Part shown: piece after piece, positions 21,314 to 29,126 of the stretch
Numbering within the stretch: the stretch's first letter is position 1
Layout: each line of letters begins with the position of its first letter
Assembly: GCA_003856375.1 (NCBI GenBank)
Contig: CP034120.1
Span: 3,839,501-3,903,500, forward strand
Direction of reading: 5' to 3'
From: Glaciecola amylolytica
GTDB taxonomy: Bacteria; Bacteroidota; Bacteroidia; Flavobacteriales_D; Crocinitomicaceae
DNA: 64,000 nucleotides
The notes under the pieces: model-generated
The model's database searches: none
The model's input: the letters and a program-made list of their open reading frames with translations, nothing else
What the model was told of the DNA's origin: nothing
Made by a program: the position numbers and the translations under genes

Positions 21314-21919
21314 ATGGGATTAAAAGATTCAACGACGGAAGAAAAGATTCTCGAAGCAGCCAAAGAGGTTTTCATGAAGTACGGTCTTTACGGTGCCCGC
21401 ATGCAGGATATCGCAAATACAGCGGGAATCAACAAAGCTTTATTGCATTATTATTTCAGAAGCAAGGAAAAGCTTTTCGATTCGGTTTTTGAAAAAGCAT
21501 TGGAGAAATATTTCGCTCAAATGACTGTCATCGGAGATAAATCAATGCCGATCAAGGAACGTTTGATGCAATATGTGGATAATATCTTCACCTTTTTCAG
21601 CGAATATCCTCAAATGTCCATGTTCATCATCAAGGAGATTTCCATCAACCCTCAAATGTTTCACGAAAAGGTAAAAACTCTTAAAAATCCGAAATCTTTG
21701 CTGATTCCGATTCTTCAGGAGGCAATCGAAAACAAGGAAATTCCCCCGATTGATCCGGTCATGTTCATGGTCAATCTGCATTCACTTTGTGCTTATCCTT
21801 TTTTAGCTTCTCCGCTTTACAAGGTAGTACTGAAAAGAAACGGATACGAATGGAATGATGATTCTCAAAACAGAATCAAAGAATCCGTCAAAGAATTTAT
21901 TTCCTTCAAATTTCAATAA
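21314..21919 (+). CDS. TetR-family transcriptional repressor
   Basis: This 201-residue regulator has a classical TetR N-terminal HTH: EKILEAAKEVFMKYGLYGARMQDIANTAGINKALLHYYFRSKEKLF, residues 9-54, with the recognition helix at INKALLHYYF. The C-terminal ligand domain is unclassified. It is the first gene of an operon with TolC, HlyD and MFS genes, only 10 bases ahead of tolC, so it most likely represses this efflux system and itself through the inverted repeat at 21280-21299. The inducer is probably a transported compound (inference). Confidence 0.93.
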   Translation: MGLKDSTTEEKILEAAKEVFMKYGLYGARMQDIANTAGINKALLHYYFRSKEKLFDSVFEKALEKYFAQMTVIGDKSMPIKERLMQYVDNIFTFFSEYPQMSMFIIKEISINPQMFHEKVKTLKNPKSLLIPILQEAIENKEIPPIDPVMFMVNLHSLCAYPFLASPLYKVVLKRNGYEWNDDSQNRIKESVKEFISFKFQ

Positions 21920-21929
21920 ACATACAATT

Positions 21930-23189
21930 ATGCGCAAATTACTGACAGTACTAAGCTTTGCTTCCGTCGGAATAGGGTTCTCGCAAAACTCCATTTCGCT
22001 GGATTCCTGCATTTCCTGGTCGAAGAAAAACTACCCTCTCATCAAACAAAACGAAGTTACATTACAACAAACGGAACAAAATGAAAAGGCAATCCGCGAA
22101 AACTGGCTGCCGAAACTTTCATTCATGGGGCAGGCGACTTACAATACGGAGGTCGTGCAATTCAACTTTCCCGGAATGGATATGAAATTCCCGCACGATG
22201 CCTACATCACTTCATTGAGCTTGGAGCAGACCATTATCGACGGAGGACAAACCAAATCTCAGCACAACGTTGAAAAGTTAAATTCAGAACTGACGATTCA
22301 ACAAAATGAGGTGGAACTCTATAAATTGGTTGAACGCGTGAACCAGTTATACATCAATATCTTACTTGGACGCGAGAATTTGCGAATTCTTGAGTTGTAC
22401 AAAGAAGATCTCAGCAACCGTGCGACAAACATGAAAGCAGGTGTCGACAACGGCTTGATTCTGGCAAGTTCTTTAGATGAACTGGAAGCAGAAATTCTGA
22501 AAACAGACCAGAATATCATCGAGTCGAAATTCCAGTTGGAAGGGCTTTACAAAACATTGACCTTGTTTACCGGAAAACCAATCGATCAGGCAACTGTTCT
22601 TTCGGAAACTCCGATTGGCGGAACTGCTGCACGCATTGAAATTCAGCGCCCGGAAATGAAGATTTTCGACCTGCAATCCAAATTGCTGGATGCGCGTTTC
22701 AAGCAGATCAATGTAAACGCTATTCCGAAAGTAACCGTGGGAGCGGCCGGAAATTATGGTCGTCCCGGTCCGAACTTTATCAATCAGGAACTTCGCTTTT
22801 TCGGAAGTGCAAACCTGACGATTCGCTGGAATATCAGTTCACTTTACGGTTTGAAAAGAGAAAAAACAAAGGTTGAATTGAACAAGAGTTTGATTGATAT
22901 TCAAAAAGAAGCTTTCTTATTCAACATTGAATCTTCCCTGAATACCCAAACGGCTCAATTAAGTGCTTTGGCTCAAATGATCGAAAAAGACGATATCATT
23001 ATTGAAAAAAGACACAGCGTAACTACTACCGCTACATCTCAAATGGAAAATGGCAAGATCACAGTCGTTAATTACTTATCTCAATTAAACGCTGAACTTC
23101 AGGCAAAACTCAACAAGAAAGTTCACGAAATCAAACGCATGAATGCCATTTCAACAATCAACGCAACATCAGGTTCAATCAAATTTTAA
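21930..23189 (+). CDS. TolC-family outer membrane efflux protein
   Basis: This is the outer membrane channel of a tripartite efflux pump. The ATG at 21930 gives MRKLLTVLSFASVGIGFSQ, a good signal peptide, and a 419-residue protein; an upstream in-frame ATG would overlap tetR and add a useless leader. The mature start SISLDSCISWSKKNYPLIKQNE is the typical TolC N-terminus. Two halves with long helical coiled-coil segments follow (for example residues 105-215 and 290-400). It lies between tetR and the HlyD-type adaptor gene (9-base gap). Confidence 0.93.
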   Translation: MRKLLTVLSFASVGIGFSQNSISLDSCISWSKKNYPLIKQNEVTLQQTEQNEKAIRENWLPKLSFMGQATYNTEVVQFNFPGMDMKFPHDAYITSLSLEQTIIDGGQTKSQHNVEKLNSELTIQQNEVELYKLVERVNQLYINILLGRENLRILELYKEDLSNRATNMKAGVDNGLILASSLDELEAEILKTDQNIIESKFQLEGLYKTLTLFTGKPIDQATVLSETPIGGTAARIEIQRPEMKIFDLQSKLLDARFKQINVNAIPKVTVGAAGNYGRPGPNFINQELRFFGSANLTIRWNISSLYGLKREKTKVELNKSLIDIQKEAFLFNIESSLNTQTAQLSALAQMIEKDDIIIEKRHSVTTTATSQMENGKITVVNYLSQLNAELQAKLNKKVHEIKRMNAISTINATSGSIKF

Positions 23190-23198
23190 AACACACAA

Positions 23199-24290
23199 AT
23201 GGAAAAGACAAAGCAAAAAAAAGAAAAAGGCTCCTCTAAAAAAATGAAGTTCATTATCGGAGGAATTGTACTTGCGGTTATCATAGGAATCGTTGTTTTC
23301 ATGATGGGCGGAAATACTGAATCAACCGATAATGCTCAATTGGATGCAAACATCATTCCTGTTCGTGCAGCTATCACCGGATATGTGAAAGAAGTATTGT
23401 TCGAAGATAATCAGGAAGTGAAAAAAGGTCAGTTGCTTGTTACGATTGACGATACTGAATACAAAGCGAAAGTAGCTCAGGCTGAAGCAGCACTGGAAAA
23501 TGCGAAAGCAAATTTAAATGCGGTAAAAAGCAATGCAGCGGCTTCCAATCAAAATGCAAGCGCGGCGGTATTCTCAACTGAAAGTACTCAGGAGAATATC
23601 AATTCTGCGAAAGCGAAATTGAACAAGGCAAAGGAAGATAACAAGCGTACTAAAAACATGTTCGCTGCAAAAGCTTCAACTCAGGCTGAACTGGATAACA
23701 GCAATGCTGAATTGGAAGTGGCGCAGGCTCAATATGATTCTGCATTGAAACAGCTGAAAGTATCTCAATCTCAATCTGCAGGTGTCAGATCTCAGGCATT
23801 GGGACAACAATCCATGATTTCGTTGGCTGAAGCAATGATTCGCCAGCGTGAGGCTGAGTTGAAACTGGCGTTGACGCAATTGGATTATGCAACGATCGAA
23901 GCTCCGTGTGACGGAATCGTTTCCAAAAGAAGTATTGAAGTAGGACAATACGTTTCTACAGGTCAGGCCGTTTGTTCTGCAATCGACAATTCAAGTCTTT
24001 GGGTAAGTGCAAATTTCAAGGAAACACAATTGGAAAACATGAAGATCGGTCAACCGGTTGAAATCCATGTAGACGCTTATCCGCATATCAAATTGACCGG
24101 TAAACTGAATTCATTTGTAGGAGCAACAGGAGCAAAATTCTCTTTATTGCCTCCCGATAATGCAACCGGAAACTTTGTAAAAATCGTTCAGCGTGTTCCT
24201 GTAAAAATCACTATCGATCATTTGACAAAAGAAGAAATCAAGATTCTTTTCCCTGGATTGAGTGCATACGTATCAGTAAAAGTGAAATAA
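23199..24290 (+). CDS. HlyD/EmrA-type membrane fusion protein
   Basis: This 363-residue periplasmic adaptor links the inner-membrane pump to TolC. A Lys-rich cytosolic start is followed by a membrane anchor at about residues 16-36 (FIIGGIVLAVIIGIVVFMMGG), the first half of the biotinyl-lipoyl-like domain (IPVRAAITGYVKEVLFEDNQEVKKGQLLVTID), a long alpha-helical hairpin (about 90-225, rich in Ala/Gln/Glu), the second lipoyl half (ATIEAPCDGIVSKRSIEVGQYV) and a beta-barrel domain (WVSANFKETQLENMKIGQPV). This is the EmrA type. It is the third gene of the operon, 2 bases ahead of the MFS gene. Confidence 0.95.
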   Translation: MEKTKQKKEKGSSKKMKFIIGGIVLAVIIGIVVFMMGGNTESTDNAQLDANIIPVRAAITGYVKEVLFEDNQEVKKGQLLVTIDDTEYKAKVAQAEAALENAKANLNAVKSNAAASNQNASAAVFSTESTQENINSAKAKLNKAKEDNKRTKNMFAAKASTQAELDNSNAELEVAQAQYDSALKQLKVSQSQSAGVRSQALGQQSMISLAEAMIRQREAELKLALTQLDYATIEAPCDGIVSKRSIEVGQYVSTGQAVCSAIDNSSLWVSANFKETQLENMKIGQPVEIHVDAYPHIKLTGKLNSFVGATGAKFSLLPPDNATGNFVKIVQRVPVKITIDHLTKEEIKILFPGLSAYVSVKVK

Positions 24291-24292
24291 TT

Positions 24293-25870
24293 GTGGAGGC
24301 TTCTACTTTAAAAACCCCCATCGTATATCCGGCGGGAGCGGAAAAGTGGATTTTAGTCATTACAGCAATCAGTTGTGCCATATTAGAGCTTCTCGATACA
24401 ACCATTGTAAACGTTTCATTACGTGAAATCAGTGGTAACGTCGGAGCAACAACAACTGAAATTGCCTGGGTGGTAACAGCTTATGCCATTTCAAATGTGA
24501 TTATTATTCCGCTTACGAGTATGCTCAGCGACTTTTTCGGTCGTCGAAATTACTTCACCGGCTCTGTTGTGATCTTTACGGTAGCGTCCCTGATGTGTGG
24601 TTTATCCACCAATCTGTGGACACTCGTTTTCTGGCGTTTTATACAAGGTTTAGGTGGTGGTGGTTTGCTTTCAACAGCACAATCCATTATCATCGGAGCT
24701 TTCCCACCAGAAAAAATCTCTGTAGCAAATGCTATTTTCGGAATGGGACTGATTCTCGGACCAACCTTCGGGCCGACTCTTGGTGGATACATTACCGATA
24801 ATTTCTCCTGGCACTGGATTTTCTTCGTGAATATTCCGATTGGTATCGTAGCAACGATCTTAAGTTATACCTATGTCACCGACCGACCCGGGGCCGTCAA
24901 GCCCAGACGGATCGACTGGTGGGGGATTTTGTTCCTGGTCGTCTCCATCGGTTCGATTCAGTATGTATTGGAAGAAGGAACTGCCGAAGACTGGTTTGAA
25001 AGTCACGAAATTGTGGCGATGACCATTGTTGGTTTGGCGAGTTTGGCTGCTTTTATCATCCGGGAATTAAGTATCGACTATCCGGCGGTAAACATTCGTT
25101 TGTATAAGAATTACAACATGATCATGGGGTCGATTATGAACTTCATGCTCGGATTGATGCTTTTCGGAACGGTCTTTATCTTCCCGTTGTTTGTGCAAAT
25201 TTCGTTAGGTTGGACAGCCACACAAACCGGAATGTTCATGATTCCGGGAGCACTCTGTACGGCCGTCGCCATGCCGCTGGTTGCCAAATTACTGGGATCC
25301 GGAATGAACCCGAAAACGGTCATTCTGATGGGAATTACCATGACTTTCACCTTTGTGATGATGCTGGCTTTCTCTTCACCGGATTCATCGGAAGGCAATT
25401 TTTATCTTCCGTTCATCTTACGTGGTTTCGGAATGGCCTTCATGATGTCACCGATTTTGACACTGGCCGTTTCAGGATTAAATCCCAAAGACATGCCTCA
25501 GGCAATCGGATTGGCCAACATGATTCGTCAGTTGGGTGGATCTGTGGGAATTGCCTTAATTAATGTGTATCTGACAAACGCAAATGCCGTTGTAAGAGGA
25601 AACATGATCGGATATATCAACCAGTACAGCGAAGCTGCATCGGAGCGCATTCAAATGTTGACACAGAACTTTTTGTCGAAAGGATTTTCTTCGATTGAAG
25701 CTCAGGAAATGGCTAACAGAACAATGGACGGTCTGATGACCAAACAGCAAATGATCGTGAGCTACAACCACGGATTTTTCATGGTTGCCAGTTTGATCCT
25801 GATCTGTGTTCCGGTCGTATTCCTGATCCGCTACAAAAAAGGAGCGAAAGCCGTCGTTGCGGATCATTAA
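24293..25870 (+). CDS. DHA2-family MFS drug:H+ antiporter (EmrB/QacA-like)
   Basis: This 525-residue inner-membrane transporter has 14 predicted helices. Signature elements are LDTTIVNVSL in helix 1 (motif D1), SDFFGRRNYF in the loop after helix 2 (motif A), FWRFIQGLGGG (motif B) and GPTFGPTLGGYI (motif C, antiporters). The start is GTG at 24293, two bases after the adaptor stop. It completes an EmrAB-TolC type tripartite pump with the preceding genes. Substrates are likely hydrophobic toxicants (family inference). A stem-loop terminator follows 25 bases after the stop. Confidence 0.94.
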   Translation: MEASTLKTPIVYPAGAEKWILVITAISCAILELLDTTIVNVSLREISGNVGATTTEIAWVVTAYAISNVIIIPLTSMLSDFFGRRNYFTGSVVIFTVASLMCGLSTNLWTLVFWRFIQGLGGGGLLSTAQSIIIGAFPPEKISVANAIFGMGLILGPTFGPTLGGYITDNFSWHWIFFVNIPIGIVATILSYTYVTDRPGAVKPRRIDWWGILFLVVSIGSIQYVLEEGTAEDWFESHEIVAMTIVGLASLAAFIIRELSIDYPAVNIRLYKNYNMIMGSIMNFMLGLMLFGTVFIFPLFVQISLGWTATQTGMFMIPGALCTAVAMPLVAKLLGSGMNPKTVILMGITMTFTFVMMLAFSSPDSSEGNFYLPFILRGFGMAFMMSPILTLAVSGLNPKDMPQAIGLANMIRQLGGSVGIALINVYLTNANAVVRGNMIGYINQYSEAASERIQMLTQNFLSKGFSSIEAQEMANRTMDGLMTKQQMIVSYNHGFFMVASLILICVPVVFLIRYKKGAKAVVADH

Positions 25871-25942: not shown

Positions 25943-26180
25943 AGTTTGTTGAGTTGTCTGAAAATTTAGCTGATGTATTCTTTTTTTCCGCGGATCGTGC
26001 GGATGATATTAGATACGTTCATAATCTGCGTTATCAGCGAGCCATTAAAAATCACCATCATTCTTACATAAAATCCGGTTTATTTAAACCTCCCCCCAAC
26101 CCTCTGAGGAAAGCGCTTTTAAATTTTATCCAACTTTTGTTTACCTTTCACTTTTCTCAACACAACCATTAAAATCAGCA

Positions 26181-26723
26181 ATGGAGAAACCTTTTTATAA
26201 TCCTCAGGAAGTACAGAAAGAACTGTCAGTTCTCTACAAGCATTTTCCGGAGGTAAAACGCCTGCTTCGCTCTTTTGGTTGTGACGGACTGACCGCAGAA
26301 GACATTTTTCAGGAAGCATTGATCATCTATTTGAGAAAGAAAAACGATCCCAATTTCGATTTTCAACTGGCTCCGATTCATTTTATCAAGCAAACCTGTA
26401 AACTTCTTTGGTACAATGCTGCCCGAAAAGCACAAAAACAGGGAACAAGCTCATTGGAATTCGATTTGGAAGAAATCCCGGATTCCTGGATGGAAAAAGA
26501 ACTGCAATACAAACAACTTGAAACCGCTCTTTCGAAGATCGGGAAGCAATGTAAGGAGTTGCTGCATTTGTTTTATGGTTTAGGCTGGAACATGGTTGAA
26601 ATTGCCAAAAAGCTTGATTTCCGTAATGACAAAGTAGCCAAAGCACAGAAATACCGCTGCATTCAGAAAGCCAAAGATTTGGTGCAGGAAGCTCAGTTGC
26701 AGGTCGAATCAACATCTTTTTAG
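26181..26723 (+). CDS. ECF-type sigma-70 family RNA polymerase sigma factor
   Basis: This 180-residue sigma factor has regions 2 and 4 only. Region 2 includes DIFQEALIIYLRKKNDPNFD (around residues 41-60) and the W-rich helix FIKQTCKLLWYNAARKAQKQ (2.3-2.4). Region 4 is an HTH: CKELLHLFYGLGWNMVEIAKKLDFRNDKVAKAQKYRCIQK (about 119-165). It directs RNA polymerase to promoters not seen here. The gene is followed after 3 bases by a membrane anti-sigma-like protein with a cytochrome c domain, its likely cognate regulator. The predicted region 4 spacing is complete, so it should be active when released. Confidence 0.9.
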   Translation: MEKPFYNPQEVQKELSVLYKHFPEVKRLLRSFGCDGLTAEDIFQEALIIYLRKKNDPNFDFQLAPIHFIKQTCKLLWYNAARKAQKQGTSSLEFDLEEIPDSWMEKELQYKQLETALSKIGKQCKELLHLFYGLGWNMVEIAKKLDFRNDKVAKAQKYRCIQKAKDLVQEAQLQVESTSF

Positions 26724-26726
26724 GTC

Positions 26727-29126
26727 ATGGGAGCGAATTGGAATCAATTGATCGAGCGTTATCTGAATAACGAGCTTTCAGCAGAAGGAAAGGCTGCTTT
26801 CGAAACCGAATTGGAACGAAATGCGGAGCTTCAAAGCGAATTGAAGCTGCACAAACTCACCAGAGAACTGATTCAACGGAACTCTTTGCGCAGGTTGGTG
26901 AAAAAATCCGGGAAGTGGTTTCATCTGAAAAAAATTCTGGTGAATAGTGGAATTGCCTTAATTGTTGCCGGAGCTCTGGCCGTTGCCGTTTATGTGATCG
27001 CAACACAAATGAGCCAGTCCGGAACAGATAAACCGCAATTGATGGAGAAATCCATGATCGAGAAACTGGATCAATACCTGGCTTTCGACAACATTGATCC
27101 GCAATACTTTCAGTTTACCGGAGAATCAGATGTGTTTTTGTCGGAAAGCGGGGTTTTACTGAGTTTAACCGACGAATCATTTTTACTGAATGGCAAACCT
27201 TACGACGGTGAAGCGCTTGTTCAGTGGCAGGAAGTTCAAAACCCTACTGAGATTGTGAAAGCAGGATTGAGTACGATGTCGGGTGACCGCTTGCTGGAAA
27301 CTCAGGGAATGTTCAGTTTGAATGCATTTACTCCGGATGGAAAAAAACTGGAATTGAGTAAAGAAGGAGCTTACATTCAGGTTCCGGTGGATGAAGTGAA
27401 AAACGGAATGAAATTGTTTCAGGGAGTTCCGCAGGCAGACGGCAAAGTCGACTGGCAGAACCCGGTAGAACTTGAACGGCTTCCGAAATCAAAACCGATG
27501 GCAGAGATGGACCTGTTTCCTCCGGAATATGAACCGAAACTGAATGAATTGAAGTGGGCAACCGAAAAAAAGAAACGCGACAGTTTGTATCTGAGTTTTG
27601 AAGAACATTTGTCGAACCAAAAGCCAGTCGCTGAAATTTATTATGCTACTAATTCCCCGGAAGTAAGTAAAGATCCAATAGCGGGCTTTGGAACTCCGGT
27701 TGGTGCTTATCCTTCAGAAGGAGAGTTGAGAGGAAAATTATTGTTCGAAACGAAATGTGCCACTTGCCACCAGGCTCATAAAGATGGTACAGGTCCCAAA
27801 TTATTCGAAGTTCGTCAAAAATGGGTTTTGGGCGGAGCAAAAGAAGGGTCAATTTACAAATGGGTTGCCGATTGGCCCGATGCAGCAAATACAGATCCGT
27901 ATGCAAGGGAAGTCAGTATGTATAAACCAACCGCTATGAATCGTTTTCCGGAGTTGAGAGGAAAGCAAAGTGATATCGATGCCATTTTCGATTACATTGA
28001 CTGTTTGCCTGATAATGATGCAGAACCAAAACCCCATATTCCGCCTTCCAAAGTTCTGGCAATCTGGGATAAAAAATTCGACAACACGCTTCTGGCAACG
28101 CAGGAATTCGAAGACAGAATGAAACTGATCCACCAAACCTGCGACGAAAAAGTGTTTGATGTGTATGCGAAAAACCTGAATGAGCCGCTTTGGAAACTGG
28201 ATCAGCGCGTCGTTAAAATGGGATACAAACAATTTCAAGCTTTGGCAGATCAACGGATCGGAAAAGTGAAATTGGATGATGCACATCAGAAAAACCTGAA
28301 TTCCTTTTACGAAGAAGCGGTGAAAGCCATCCGGGAAAAAGGAAAGAAGGAGTTGGAATCTGCTTTGAAAAAAGAACGCCAATGGGATAACGAACTACAG
28401 GATGAACGCGGAAAGGAAGTGCTTCGAAAAGGTTTGCGGGAATCTGCCAATCTGAATGAAGAATACGGATTCAACCTGCAGAATGTATACAAGCAATTGG
28501 GAGTTACGGCCGCTTTTCAAATGCATGGTGGTGGAACGATTGTCAACATTGATAAATATGTTTGGGAAGCAACAGTTGCCCGCCAATCGACTTTAATAAC
28601 CGATCCGACTACGGGAAAAACGGCACAACTTACCTACGAACCACTTGCTGTAGAAATATCGGAATCGGAGCAGTACGACAAGCTGTTCATTTACCTCTTC
28701 TCAAAAGAAATCAACAGTTATCAGCGATTGGATTTCAAAGAAGGAAAACTGAATTACAACCTGAACGGCGATATGAACTATTCTGCAGCGATTGTCGGGA
28801 TGAATGATAAAGGCTACTTCTACCACCAGATCAACGAATTGAAAGTAGAAGATCTGGGAGTAATTGCTTTGGAGAAAATTTCTGAAAATGAATTTGACAA
28901 ACGAATCAACATTCTCAACAACCACCGAACAGACAAACCCATGAGTTTGAAAGACGAACTCAAATGGCTCTTCAAAGAACAGGCGAACTACAAAGTACTT
29001 CAAAAAAGAAGGGAGAATGAGGCTTTTCGCACTCAAATCCGGTCTACGATTTATTCATGTATGCAAAGTGAAACCGGAAACCAAAAGACTCTTGACGACT
29101 CATTTTCAGATACTATTAATAAATAA
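26727..29126 (+). CDS. Transmembrane anti-sigma-like protein with a c-type cytochrome domain
   Basis: This 799-residue protein joins unusual parts. Residues 1-60 (WNQLIERYLNNELSAEGKAAFE...) look like the short cytosolic anti-sigma segment common in Bacteroidota. One membrane helix lies at about 70-93. The periplasmic part begins with a beta-rich region (110-290, including FTPDGKKLELSKEGAYIQVP) and then a mono-haem cytochrome c domain: CATCH at residues 344-348, candidate axial Met at 398 or 404, typical end ELRGKQSDIDAIFDYI. Residues 440-600 are charged and helical; 600-740 are beta-rich. The gene sits 3 bases after an ECF sigma factor. Haem- or redox-gated control of that sigma factor is inference from the layout. 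The C-terminal half is unrecognised. Confidence 0.85.
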   Translation: MGANWNQLIERYLNNELSAEGKAAFETELERNAELQSELKLHKLTRELIQRNSLRRLVKKSGKWFHLKKILVNSGIALIVAGALAVAVYVIATQMSQSGTDKPQLMEKSMIEKLDQYLAFDNIDPQYFQFTGESDVFLSESGVLLSLTDESFLLNGKPYDGEALVQWQEVQNPTEIVKAGLSTMSGDRLLETQGMFSLNAFTPDGKKLELSKEGAYIQVPVDEVKNGMKLFQGVPQADGKVDWQNPVELERLPKSKPMAEMDLFPPEYEPKLNELKWATEKKKRDSLYLSFEEHLSNQKPVAEIYYATNSPEVSKDPIAGFGTPVGAYPSEGELRGKLLFETKCATCHQAHKDGTGPKLFEVRQKWVLGGAKEGSIYKWVADWPDAANTDPYAREVSMYKPTAMNRFPELRGKQSDIDAIFDYIDCLPDNDAEPKPHIPPSKVLAIWDKKFDNTLLATQEFEDRMKLIHQTCDEKVFDVYAKNLNEPLWKLDQRVVKMGYKQFQALADQRIGKVKLDDAHQKNLNSFYEEAVKAIREKGKKELESALKKERQWDNELQDERGKEVLRKGLRESANLNEEYGFNLQNVYKQLGVTAAFQMHGGGTIVNIDKYVWEATVARQSTLITDPTTGKTAQLTYEPLAVEISESEQYDKLFIYLFSKEINSYQRLDFKEGKLNYNLNGDMNYSAAIVGMNDKGYFYHQINELKVEDLGVIALEKISENEFDKRINILNNHRTDKPMSLKDELKWLFKEQANYKVLQKRRENEAFRTQIRSTIYSCMQSETGNQKTLDDSFSDTINK

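Follow-up and report, generated by a model that had tools for sequence, protein, structure and literature searches.

The inputs of many extracytoplasmic function (ECF) sigma factors of the Bacteroidota, and the way in which these factors are inhibited, are poorly known. Membrane-bound ECF anti-sigma factors as such have been described, among them the FecR-type proteins of cell-surface signalling. Class I (zf-HC2 type) anti-sigma domains adjoin only 6% of Bacteroidota ECF sigma factors according to a coevolution study (PMC7406223). In ActA of alternative complex III (ACIII) from Flavobacterium johnsoniae, the N-terminal sixth haem lies on an apparently mobile domain that one paper proposes as an electron shuttle within ACIII to the aa3 oxidase (PMC8552683), and an extra cytochrome domain of ActA is noted in another (PMC5928083). 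Here, we describe a locus in a 64,000-nt stretch of Glaciecola amylolytica (contig CP034120.1, positions 3,839,501 to 3,903,500; the window), in which an ECF sigma factor gene is followed by the gene for a membrane protein. Sequence comparisons support an assignment of this protein to the anti-sigma type, with an ActA-type c-type cytochrome in its presumed extracytoplasmic part.

The sigma factor and membrane protein genes

The features of the two genes are as follows.

26181-26723, plus strand: ECF sigma factor, 180 aa (TIGR02937 and Sigma70_r2 above cut-offs)
26727-29126, plus strand: anti-sigma-type membrane protein with a cytochrome c module, 799 aa, with five Cys residues, all at residue 344 or later
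26727-26930, plus strand: anti-sigma-type domain, residues 1-68, presumed cytosolic (family conservation, weak profile matches)
Residues 52-70, plus strand: basic stretch before the membrane helix (read from the sequence)
26934-27005, plus strand: membrane helix, about residues 70-93 (read from the sequence; AF2 helix 33-91)
27069-27605, plus strand: DomA, residues 115-293, beta-rich, presumed extracytoplasmic (conserved; AF2 strands 126-248)
27606-28037, plus strand: variable slot between DomA and DomC, residues 294-437
27696-28022, plus strand: ActA-type cytochrome c module, residues 324-432 (65% identity to the ActA of the same genome; trees)
27756-27770, plus strand: CATCH haem c attachment motif, residues 344-348
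27936-27938, plus strand: Met404, candidate axial haem ligand (alignment with the axial Met of ActA)
28035-29093, plus strand: DomC, residues 437-789, with a helical part, a beta part and a C-terminal helix (conservation, AF2)

A first-pass annotation, made from the letters of the window, had placed the two genes 3 bases apart, and the coordinates agree: the TAG stop codon of the first gene occupies 26721-26723 and the ATG of the second begins at 26727. The first gene encodes an ECF sigma factor, as had been proposed. Its product matches the curated model TIGR02937 (sigma70-ECF) over residues 20-165 with E=7.9e-13 and 48.4 bits (cut-off 42.9), and Pfam Sigma70_r2 with 27.1 bits (cut-off 24), Pfam matching region 2 only.

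The c-type cytochrome domain predicted for the second protein was confirmed by a match of residues 335-425 to PF00034 (Cytochrom_C; 30.4 bits, cut-off 21.3) together with the CATCH motif. Either Met398 or Met404 had been suggested as the axial ligand; Met404 aligns with the axial Met of ActA, and Met398 is not conserved and was discarded. The protein contains one CXXCH motif and not the six of ActA. The C-terminal part of about 360 residues (437-790), described earlier as unrecognised, indeed has no Pfam match in the window protein, though it is conserved across the family reported below. Cys472 and Cys778 of this part are both present in 40 of the 41 complete rows of the family alignment and both absent in the remaining one, which suggests a disulfide.

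The assignment of the N-terminus to a Bacteroidota-type anti-sigma domain was less straightforward. In the window protein alone the similarity is weak, the NCBIfam 'anti-sigma factor' model giving E=0.061 and 13.3 bits where the cut-off is 100. The N-termini of relatives do better while staying below the cut-offs: at E≤0.1, the same model is matched by 16/31 (best 1.2e-4) and Pfam zf-HC2 by 11/31 (best 0.002). Profile comparison of the domain with the Protein Data Bank (PDB) gave weak matches to RsrA (E=0.08) and RslA (E=0.89). Pfam scans detected no FecR domain in the window protein or in family members aligned at the conserved N- and C-terminal parts.

The full-length AF2 model of the membrane protein (mean pLDDT 80.8, pTM 0.58) has one long helix, residues 33-91, at the membrane segment; the modules found in the family, reported below, are of kinds that work outside the cytoplasm, in line with the predicted topology. 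The model gave no match in the PDB at E≤0.001, the top matches, with E from about 0.02, being starch-binding and Ig/Fn3-like beta domains. The sigma factor and the anti-sigma N-terminus were also modelled as one read-through chain (mean pLDDT 83.6, pTM 0.76), in which the two are predicted to take a defined mutual position. This model likewise had no PDB match at E≤0.001, and its top matches were mostly sigma chains.

Conservation of the pair

The first-pass annotation had called for a survey of the pair across genomes, and the pair proved to be conserved. The set scored comprised 69 open reading frames (ORFs), 43 with both conserved ends and 26 with the anti-sigma domain and DomA. A sigma factor gene lies directly upstream, at a gap of -226 to +121 nt, in 67/69 ORFs, equivalent to 66/68 distinct scaffold genes of five family codes, since L097 and L115 are one gene. 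The exceptions are L067, at a contig edge, and L043. Three fragments that lack the N-terminus (L053, L057 and L082) were left out of the score, as were DomA proteins that have no anti-sigma domain and no sigma factor gene nearby (L110, with two genes, L116, L118 and L119). On the pairing counts, a chance neighbourhood of the two genes was rejected.

A scan of named genomes, which overlaps the 68-gene set, gave a paired sigma factor at 64/69 loci. Of the exceptions, L266 lies at a contig edge and L261 is the same gene as L043; L284 has no detected anti-sigma domain and a sigma factor gene downstream only, L290 has a sigma factor gene about 300 nt upstream and an apparently broken reading frame, and the last is L299. 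The sigma factor is present at 62/62 loci with a detected anti-sigma domain and at 2/7 without one. L043/L261 and L299 are cytochrome-bearing scaffolds whose N-terminus was read as a membrane anchor only and whose loci contain no sigma model match. The case that the earlier annotation had named as counter-evidence, namely a cytochrome protein with an unrelated N-terminus and no sigma factor gene, was thus found in a minor form in these two scaffolds. Since both lack the anti-sigma domain and the sigma factor at once, we interpret them as cases of joint loss, in keeping with an N-terminus that binds sigma.

A paralogous pair is present in the same genome (L006, C1:2294000-2313000). Its sigma factor (C1:2306646-2307170) is 56% identical to that of the window, and the following gene encodes a protein of 309 aa that is 43% identical in the anti-sigma N-terminal region (query residues 2-103) and different in its outer part. 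The tail of this protein has a weak WG-repeat match, below the cut-off. Pfam identifies cbb3 oxidase genes (FixO, FixP) and a DsbD_2 gene no more than a few kb away from the pair. In the window, efflux genes (OEP, HlyD and MFS by Pfam) occupy 21855-25870 on the same strand, just upstream of the sigma pair. A scaffold fragment with a sigma factor (L300) was also seen in a record named Saccharospirillaceae, probably a contaminated assembly.

A conserved scaffold with exchangeable modules

In a search of 240 genomes of the family, in which at most four candidates were scored per genome, 230 genomes gave some match, many to the ActA-type cytochrome only; the scaffold loci examined are among the matches listed in this search and in that of the order given below, and the scaffold counts are not exhaustive. 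The family conserves residues 1-297 and 437-785 but not the stretch between them. Judged by this conservation, the scaffold is composed of the anti-sigma domain, the membrane helix, DomA and DomC, and carries exchangeable modules. These are an ActA-type cytochrome c, a DsbD_N-like domain, TonB_C, a type IX secretion signal domain (CHU_C), or none.

A Pfam scan of ten slot inserts detected TonB_C in three (down to 4.4e-18), DsbD_N above the cut-off in one (E=4.7e-6) and below it in two, and cytochrome c in one, beside a weak DsbD_N-like domain; the other five gave nothing, a chance-like match, or a match already within these counts. With local models, the 69 scaffold ORFs included 22 with a cytochrome, 9 with a DsbD-like module, 17 with TonB_C (some of them C-terminal) and 27 with none, combinations of modules being included in these numbers. 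CHU_C was found on three C-terminal tails (E=2e-14, 1.4e-14 and 9.4e-9). In L090 and L094 the cytochrome sits inside DomC, which is a second insertion site, and six members have a bare slot linker of 55-73 residues.

A scaffold tree with 53 rows, built by a quick method, requires 13 changes of the cytochrome label, at least 11 of them forced by well-supported branches; the DsbD-like label needs seven changes and the TonB label six. L065 and L068 are 96% identical over residues 1-293 and 20% identical in the slot, and by this comparison represent a recent module exchange on near-identical scaffolds.

On a wider scale, 124 of 399 genomes searched across the order match the N-terminal profile at E≤1e-10, including matches to DomA only, and 6 of 395 genomes across the phylum match at E≤1e-20, the window included. 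DomA also occurs in other proteins that lack the remainder of the scaffold. In the window's own genome, two genes read by eye as lipoprotein genes (L110, C1:2652000-2663000) have DomA and neither an anti-sigma domain nor a sigma factor. At the locus L118, DomA and DomC occur in a similar lipoprotein-like protein. The scaffold gene of G054 (L039/L010) contains one in-frame TGA, and its open frame starts at about query residue 22.

Origin of the cytochrome module

A search of its own genome with the membrane protein returned the protein itself, an ActA-like protein, the N-terminal paralogue (about the first 100 residues) and a cbb3 oxidase subunit. The ActA-like protein is encoded elsewhere in the genome, has six haem motifs and matches subunit A of ACIII (6btm_A) at 1.7e-63; the gene that follows looks like that for ActB on reading. 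The window cytochrome (query 325-430) and the N-terminal haem domain of this ActA share 65% identity.

An ActA match was obtained in 30/30 genomes searched. In 13 of the 19 genomes that have both proteins, the anti-sigma cytochrome scores best against the ActA of its own genome out of 29 ActAs; G047, G050 and G051 had no ActA of their own in that set. Among ten further genomes from the named scan, scored against 39 ActAs, the own ActA came first in 4/9 and second in two more, and in the tenth a full ActA was not found. The ActA of G050 (L128) has CATCP instead of CATCH as its first haem motif, which may be a sequencing error or a real loss.

When 22 anti-sigma and 30 ActA cytochrome domains were placed on one tree, the two labels changed 11 times, at least six of these changes being forced, and confining the anti-sigma rows to a single clade cost 264 log units. 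On an enlarged tree of 31 anti-sigma and 39 ActA rows, from which the short AS_G816 was dropped, there are 15 label changes, at least 10 of them forced, and a single anti-sigma clade is rejected by 425 log units. A single gain of the cytochrome is rejected by these trees, although single forks are unsure because the alignment has 102 columns only and the bootstrap is unsettled. The anti-sigma cytochromes are polyphyletic among the ActA domains, which indicates several rounds of copying or conversion of the module; the trees are compatible with repeated copying and with gene conversion. ActA looks like the source, since many ActA rows have shorter branches. Seven anti-sigma rows, six from the genus and that of G118, form one clade, and a single gain within the Fluviicola-like genomes is likely on this evidence.

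For the DsbD-like modules, a small tree set has two forced label changes and rejects a single clade by 103 log units. Of these modules, one is 77% identical to the DsbD of its own genome, and the own DsbD ranks first in 2/7.

Promoter-like motif and candidate targets

One further feature precedes the sigma factor gene.

26138-26162, plus strand: promoter-like site TGTTTACCTTT-N10-RACA (TGTTTACCTTTCACTTTTCTCAACA), with the sigma ATG 43 nt past its first base

The block is conserved in eight aligned loci of the genus, upstream of the sigma factor gene, and its position there is presumed to reflect autoregulation. It occurs exactly in 27/69 upstream stretches of paired sigma factors, mostly those of close relatives, and is largely missing from distant ones. 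Over 14 genomes of the genus, 31 exact sites were found compared with three for a reversed-pattern control; G053 and G057, genus genomes with no scaffold match, have none. The whole family of 240 genomes has 73 exact sites compared with 23 for the control. As the excess in the 226 genomes outside the genus is small (42 compared with 20, about twofold), the enrichment lies mostly within the genus. When up to one mismatch was allowed, the motif did no better than the reversed control (87 and 82 sites over the 14 genomes), and only exact sites were therefore used.

By position, 12 of the 31 genus sites lie before the scaffold-linked sigma factor and seven before the paralogous one. Ten of the other 12 are located 34-228 nt before a gene whose product has a signal sequence at its start, as judged by eye. 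In the remaining two, the downstream gene has no signal-like start (L222) or no clear gene follows (L228). Among the putative targets are proteins that Pfam assigns to the OmpA family (L231, L232 and, in the genome of the window, L226; L223 is similar) and transglutaminase-like proteins (L220, L221 and L224). A transglutaminase-like target is common to genomes with the cytochrome module (G059, G051) and to one with the DsbD module (G058), which suggests one output with different inputs. Both paralogous sigma factors share the motif, with one mismatch in the window's genome, and hence the targets are not assignable to one of them. A similar untranslated stretch, possibly a leader element, follows about 30-100 nt past the motif in L225, L227, L228, L229 and L230, where the downstream genes differ.

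Haem ligands and the nature of the signal

All 22 scaffolds that match the cytochrome model contain CXXCH; as the rows of the axial-Met alignment were chosen by this motif, its retention is judged from the model-matched scaffolds. The position of Met404 is occupied by Met in 16/22 anti-sigma cytochromes and in 29/29 ActA rows scored (L128 left out), and by H, K, C, I or Q in the other six. The dN/dS ratio of the slot is about 0.11 in two pairs of cytochromes, one of which is the window and L036 with a dS of 1.68, near saturation, and 0.30 in a third pair. To judge from these ratios, the cytochrome slot is under purifying selection. Haem is very probably attached to the window protein in vivo.

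That the membrane protein binds the paired sigma factor as its anti-sigma factor is very probable. The reading that we favour, and regard as evenly balanced, is that a membrane anti-sigma factor watches over machines of the envelope by means of built-in copies of their parts, and in the window would follow the respiratory chain via haem. The N-terminal helices would hold the sigma factor at the membrane, and the outer DomA/DomC scaffold would carry an exchangeable module copied from an envelope machine of the same cell, in the window protein one of the ActA mobile-monohaem type. This copy may dock or exchange electrons with the same partners as the ActA domain. Its redox or docking state would then alter the scaffold and, through it, the membrane helix, and the sigma factor would be freed by a conformational change or by cleavage. 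Once freed, the sigma factor would transcribe the operon that encodes it as well as genes whose products are exported, which in the window's genome means the OmpA-family gene (L226), with TGTTTACC as the candidate promoter element for control of both. That the module reports on the ACIII/oxidase branch and not on another signal is somewhat more tentative and falls a little short of an even chance. More speculatively, the family may consist of 'integrated-decoy' anti-sigma factors, in which one scaffold watches respiratory complex III, the DsbD relay, TonB coupling or type IX secretion via domain copies renewed from the host genome, the copy in the window being haem-bearing and reading the respiratory chain.

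Several observations weigh against the favoured reading. The own ActA is not top-ranked in 6/19 and 5/9 genomes, and that of the window's genome is only fourth (69% in local alignment); the ActA of G060 reaches 72% and, closer still, the anti-sigma cytochrome of this relative 76%. ActA-like electron transfer may not persist in all members, given that six of 22 lack the axial Met. The candidate regulon consists of apparently exported proteins and not of respiratory genes, so that the output alone does not point to respiration. Two cytochrome scaffolds (L043/L261 and L299) exist with no sigma factor, the anti-sigma similarity of the window N-terminus falls below curated cut-offs, and the modelled complex is a single chain that has no interface scores and matches solved sigma chains weakly.

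An alternative, unlikely but worth weighing, is that the signal is the maturation of the module, i.e. haem attached and thiols reduced, and not electron traffic. An apo-module would be misfolded or cleaved, with release of the sigma factor, and DsbD-like modules would likewise serve as reporters of the thiol relay. In favour of such a sensor, CXXCH is universal in the model-matched scaffolds and the axial Met is not, the DsbD_N-like modules (best E=4.7e-6) take the slot of the cytochrome, and the maturation of cytochrome c makes use of thiol reduction by DsbD/CcdA-type proteins. However, TonB_C and CHU_C modules also occur in the family, and to our knowledge neither has a role in cytochrome c maturation; moreover, the cytochromes resemble ActA more than haem attachment requires.

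We consider it similarly unlikely that the module only binds a partner of ActA (ActE or the aa3 oxidase) and that occupancy or assembly is sensed, redox being irrelevant. The module types (ActA cytochrome, DsbD N-domain, TonB_C and CHU_C) do resemble partner-binding domains, the anti-sigma cytochromes tend to track the ActA of their own lineage, and the axial Met is lost from some of them. Retention of CXXCH speaks against this explanation, in that haem thereby seems to matter.

Less probable again is a role of the module as a spacer or tether, exchanged in a nearly neutral manner on a scaffold in which DomA/DomC is the real sensor. Although the members with a bare linker show that the scaffold exists with no slot module, the slot dN/dS of about 0.11 in 2/3 pairs and the narrow set of envelope-machine domains from which the recognised modules are drawn argue otherwise. 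Besides haem attachment and redox state, the first-pass annotation had raised oxygen or NO as what could gate sigma release. A haem-based sensor of O2, NO or CO acting by Met displacement would accord with the replacement of the axial Met in 6/22; it appears improbable, because the window protein retains Met404 in an ActA-like domain and there is no obvious reason for such a sensor to track the ActA lineage. Finally, the idea of an electron-transfer protein that adjoins a sigma factor gene by chance, to which the weak profile support for the window N-terminus lends something, is very hard to reconcile with the 66/68 pairing over five family codes, the joint absence of N-terminal domain and sigma factor, and the existence of a paralogous pair.

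Comparison with known systems

A search of the titles and abstract openings of open-licence papers revealed no anti-sigma factor with a cytochrome domain, and a word search for 'cytochrome' in three ECF papers (PMC7406223, PMC8999054 and PMC8103513) gave no hit. If the favoured reading is true, the pair would couple regulation directly to the respiratory chain. It is conserved and genetically simple, and sequence suffices to name its input modules, which are exchanged in nature; they would then form a natural kit to rewire sigma factor inputs. The window protein would also be the first haem-c anti-sigma factor; we know of no earlier one.

Like the class I anti-sigma factors RsrA and RslA, to which its profile matches are weak, the window protein appears to have a small helical N-terminal domain and is encoded right after the sigma factor. 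Here, this domain precedes one predicted membrane helix and, unlike that of zinc-binding class I members, contains no Cys and hence no zinc motif. The outer part, DomA/DomC with a module, also sets it apart, no cytochrome-bearing class I member having been found in the literature searched. The FecR-type anti-sigma factors of Bacteroidota are likewise membrane proteins beside an ECF sigma factor, and TonB_C is present in some members of the family described here; unlike them, the window protein and its relatives gave no FecR domain match in the Pfam scans. With the N-terminal mobile monohaem domain of ActA, the module shares 65% identity, CXXCH and the position of the axial Met, whereas ActA has six haem motifs in a quinol-oxidising complex and the window protein one haem domain in an anti-sigma scaffold. 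DcrA and the Geobacter sensors are chemoreceptors and kinases in which c-type haem, bound covalently in the periplasm, is coupled to a cytosolic output; their haem domain is another one, and so is the output, which is not sigma factor release.

Membrane ECF anti-sigma factors as such are already known, and what appears new here is that they carry interchangeable sensor parts. In plant NLR immune receptors, a scaffold acquires copies of other cellular proteins at given sites; such uptake is recurrent, and the copies are interchangeable. The pattern of uptake in the anti-sigma family is similar to that of the integrated-decoy domains of these receptors; the proteins are unrelated, and by analogy we propose a decoy function for the modules described here.

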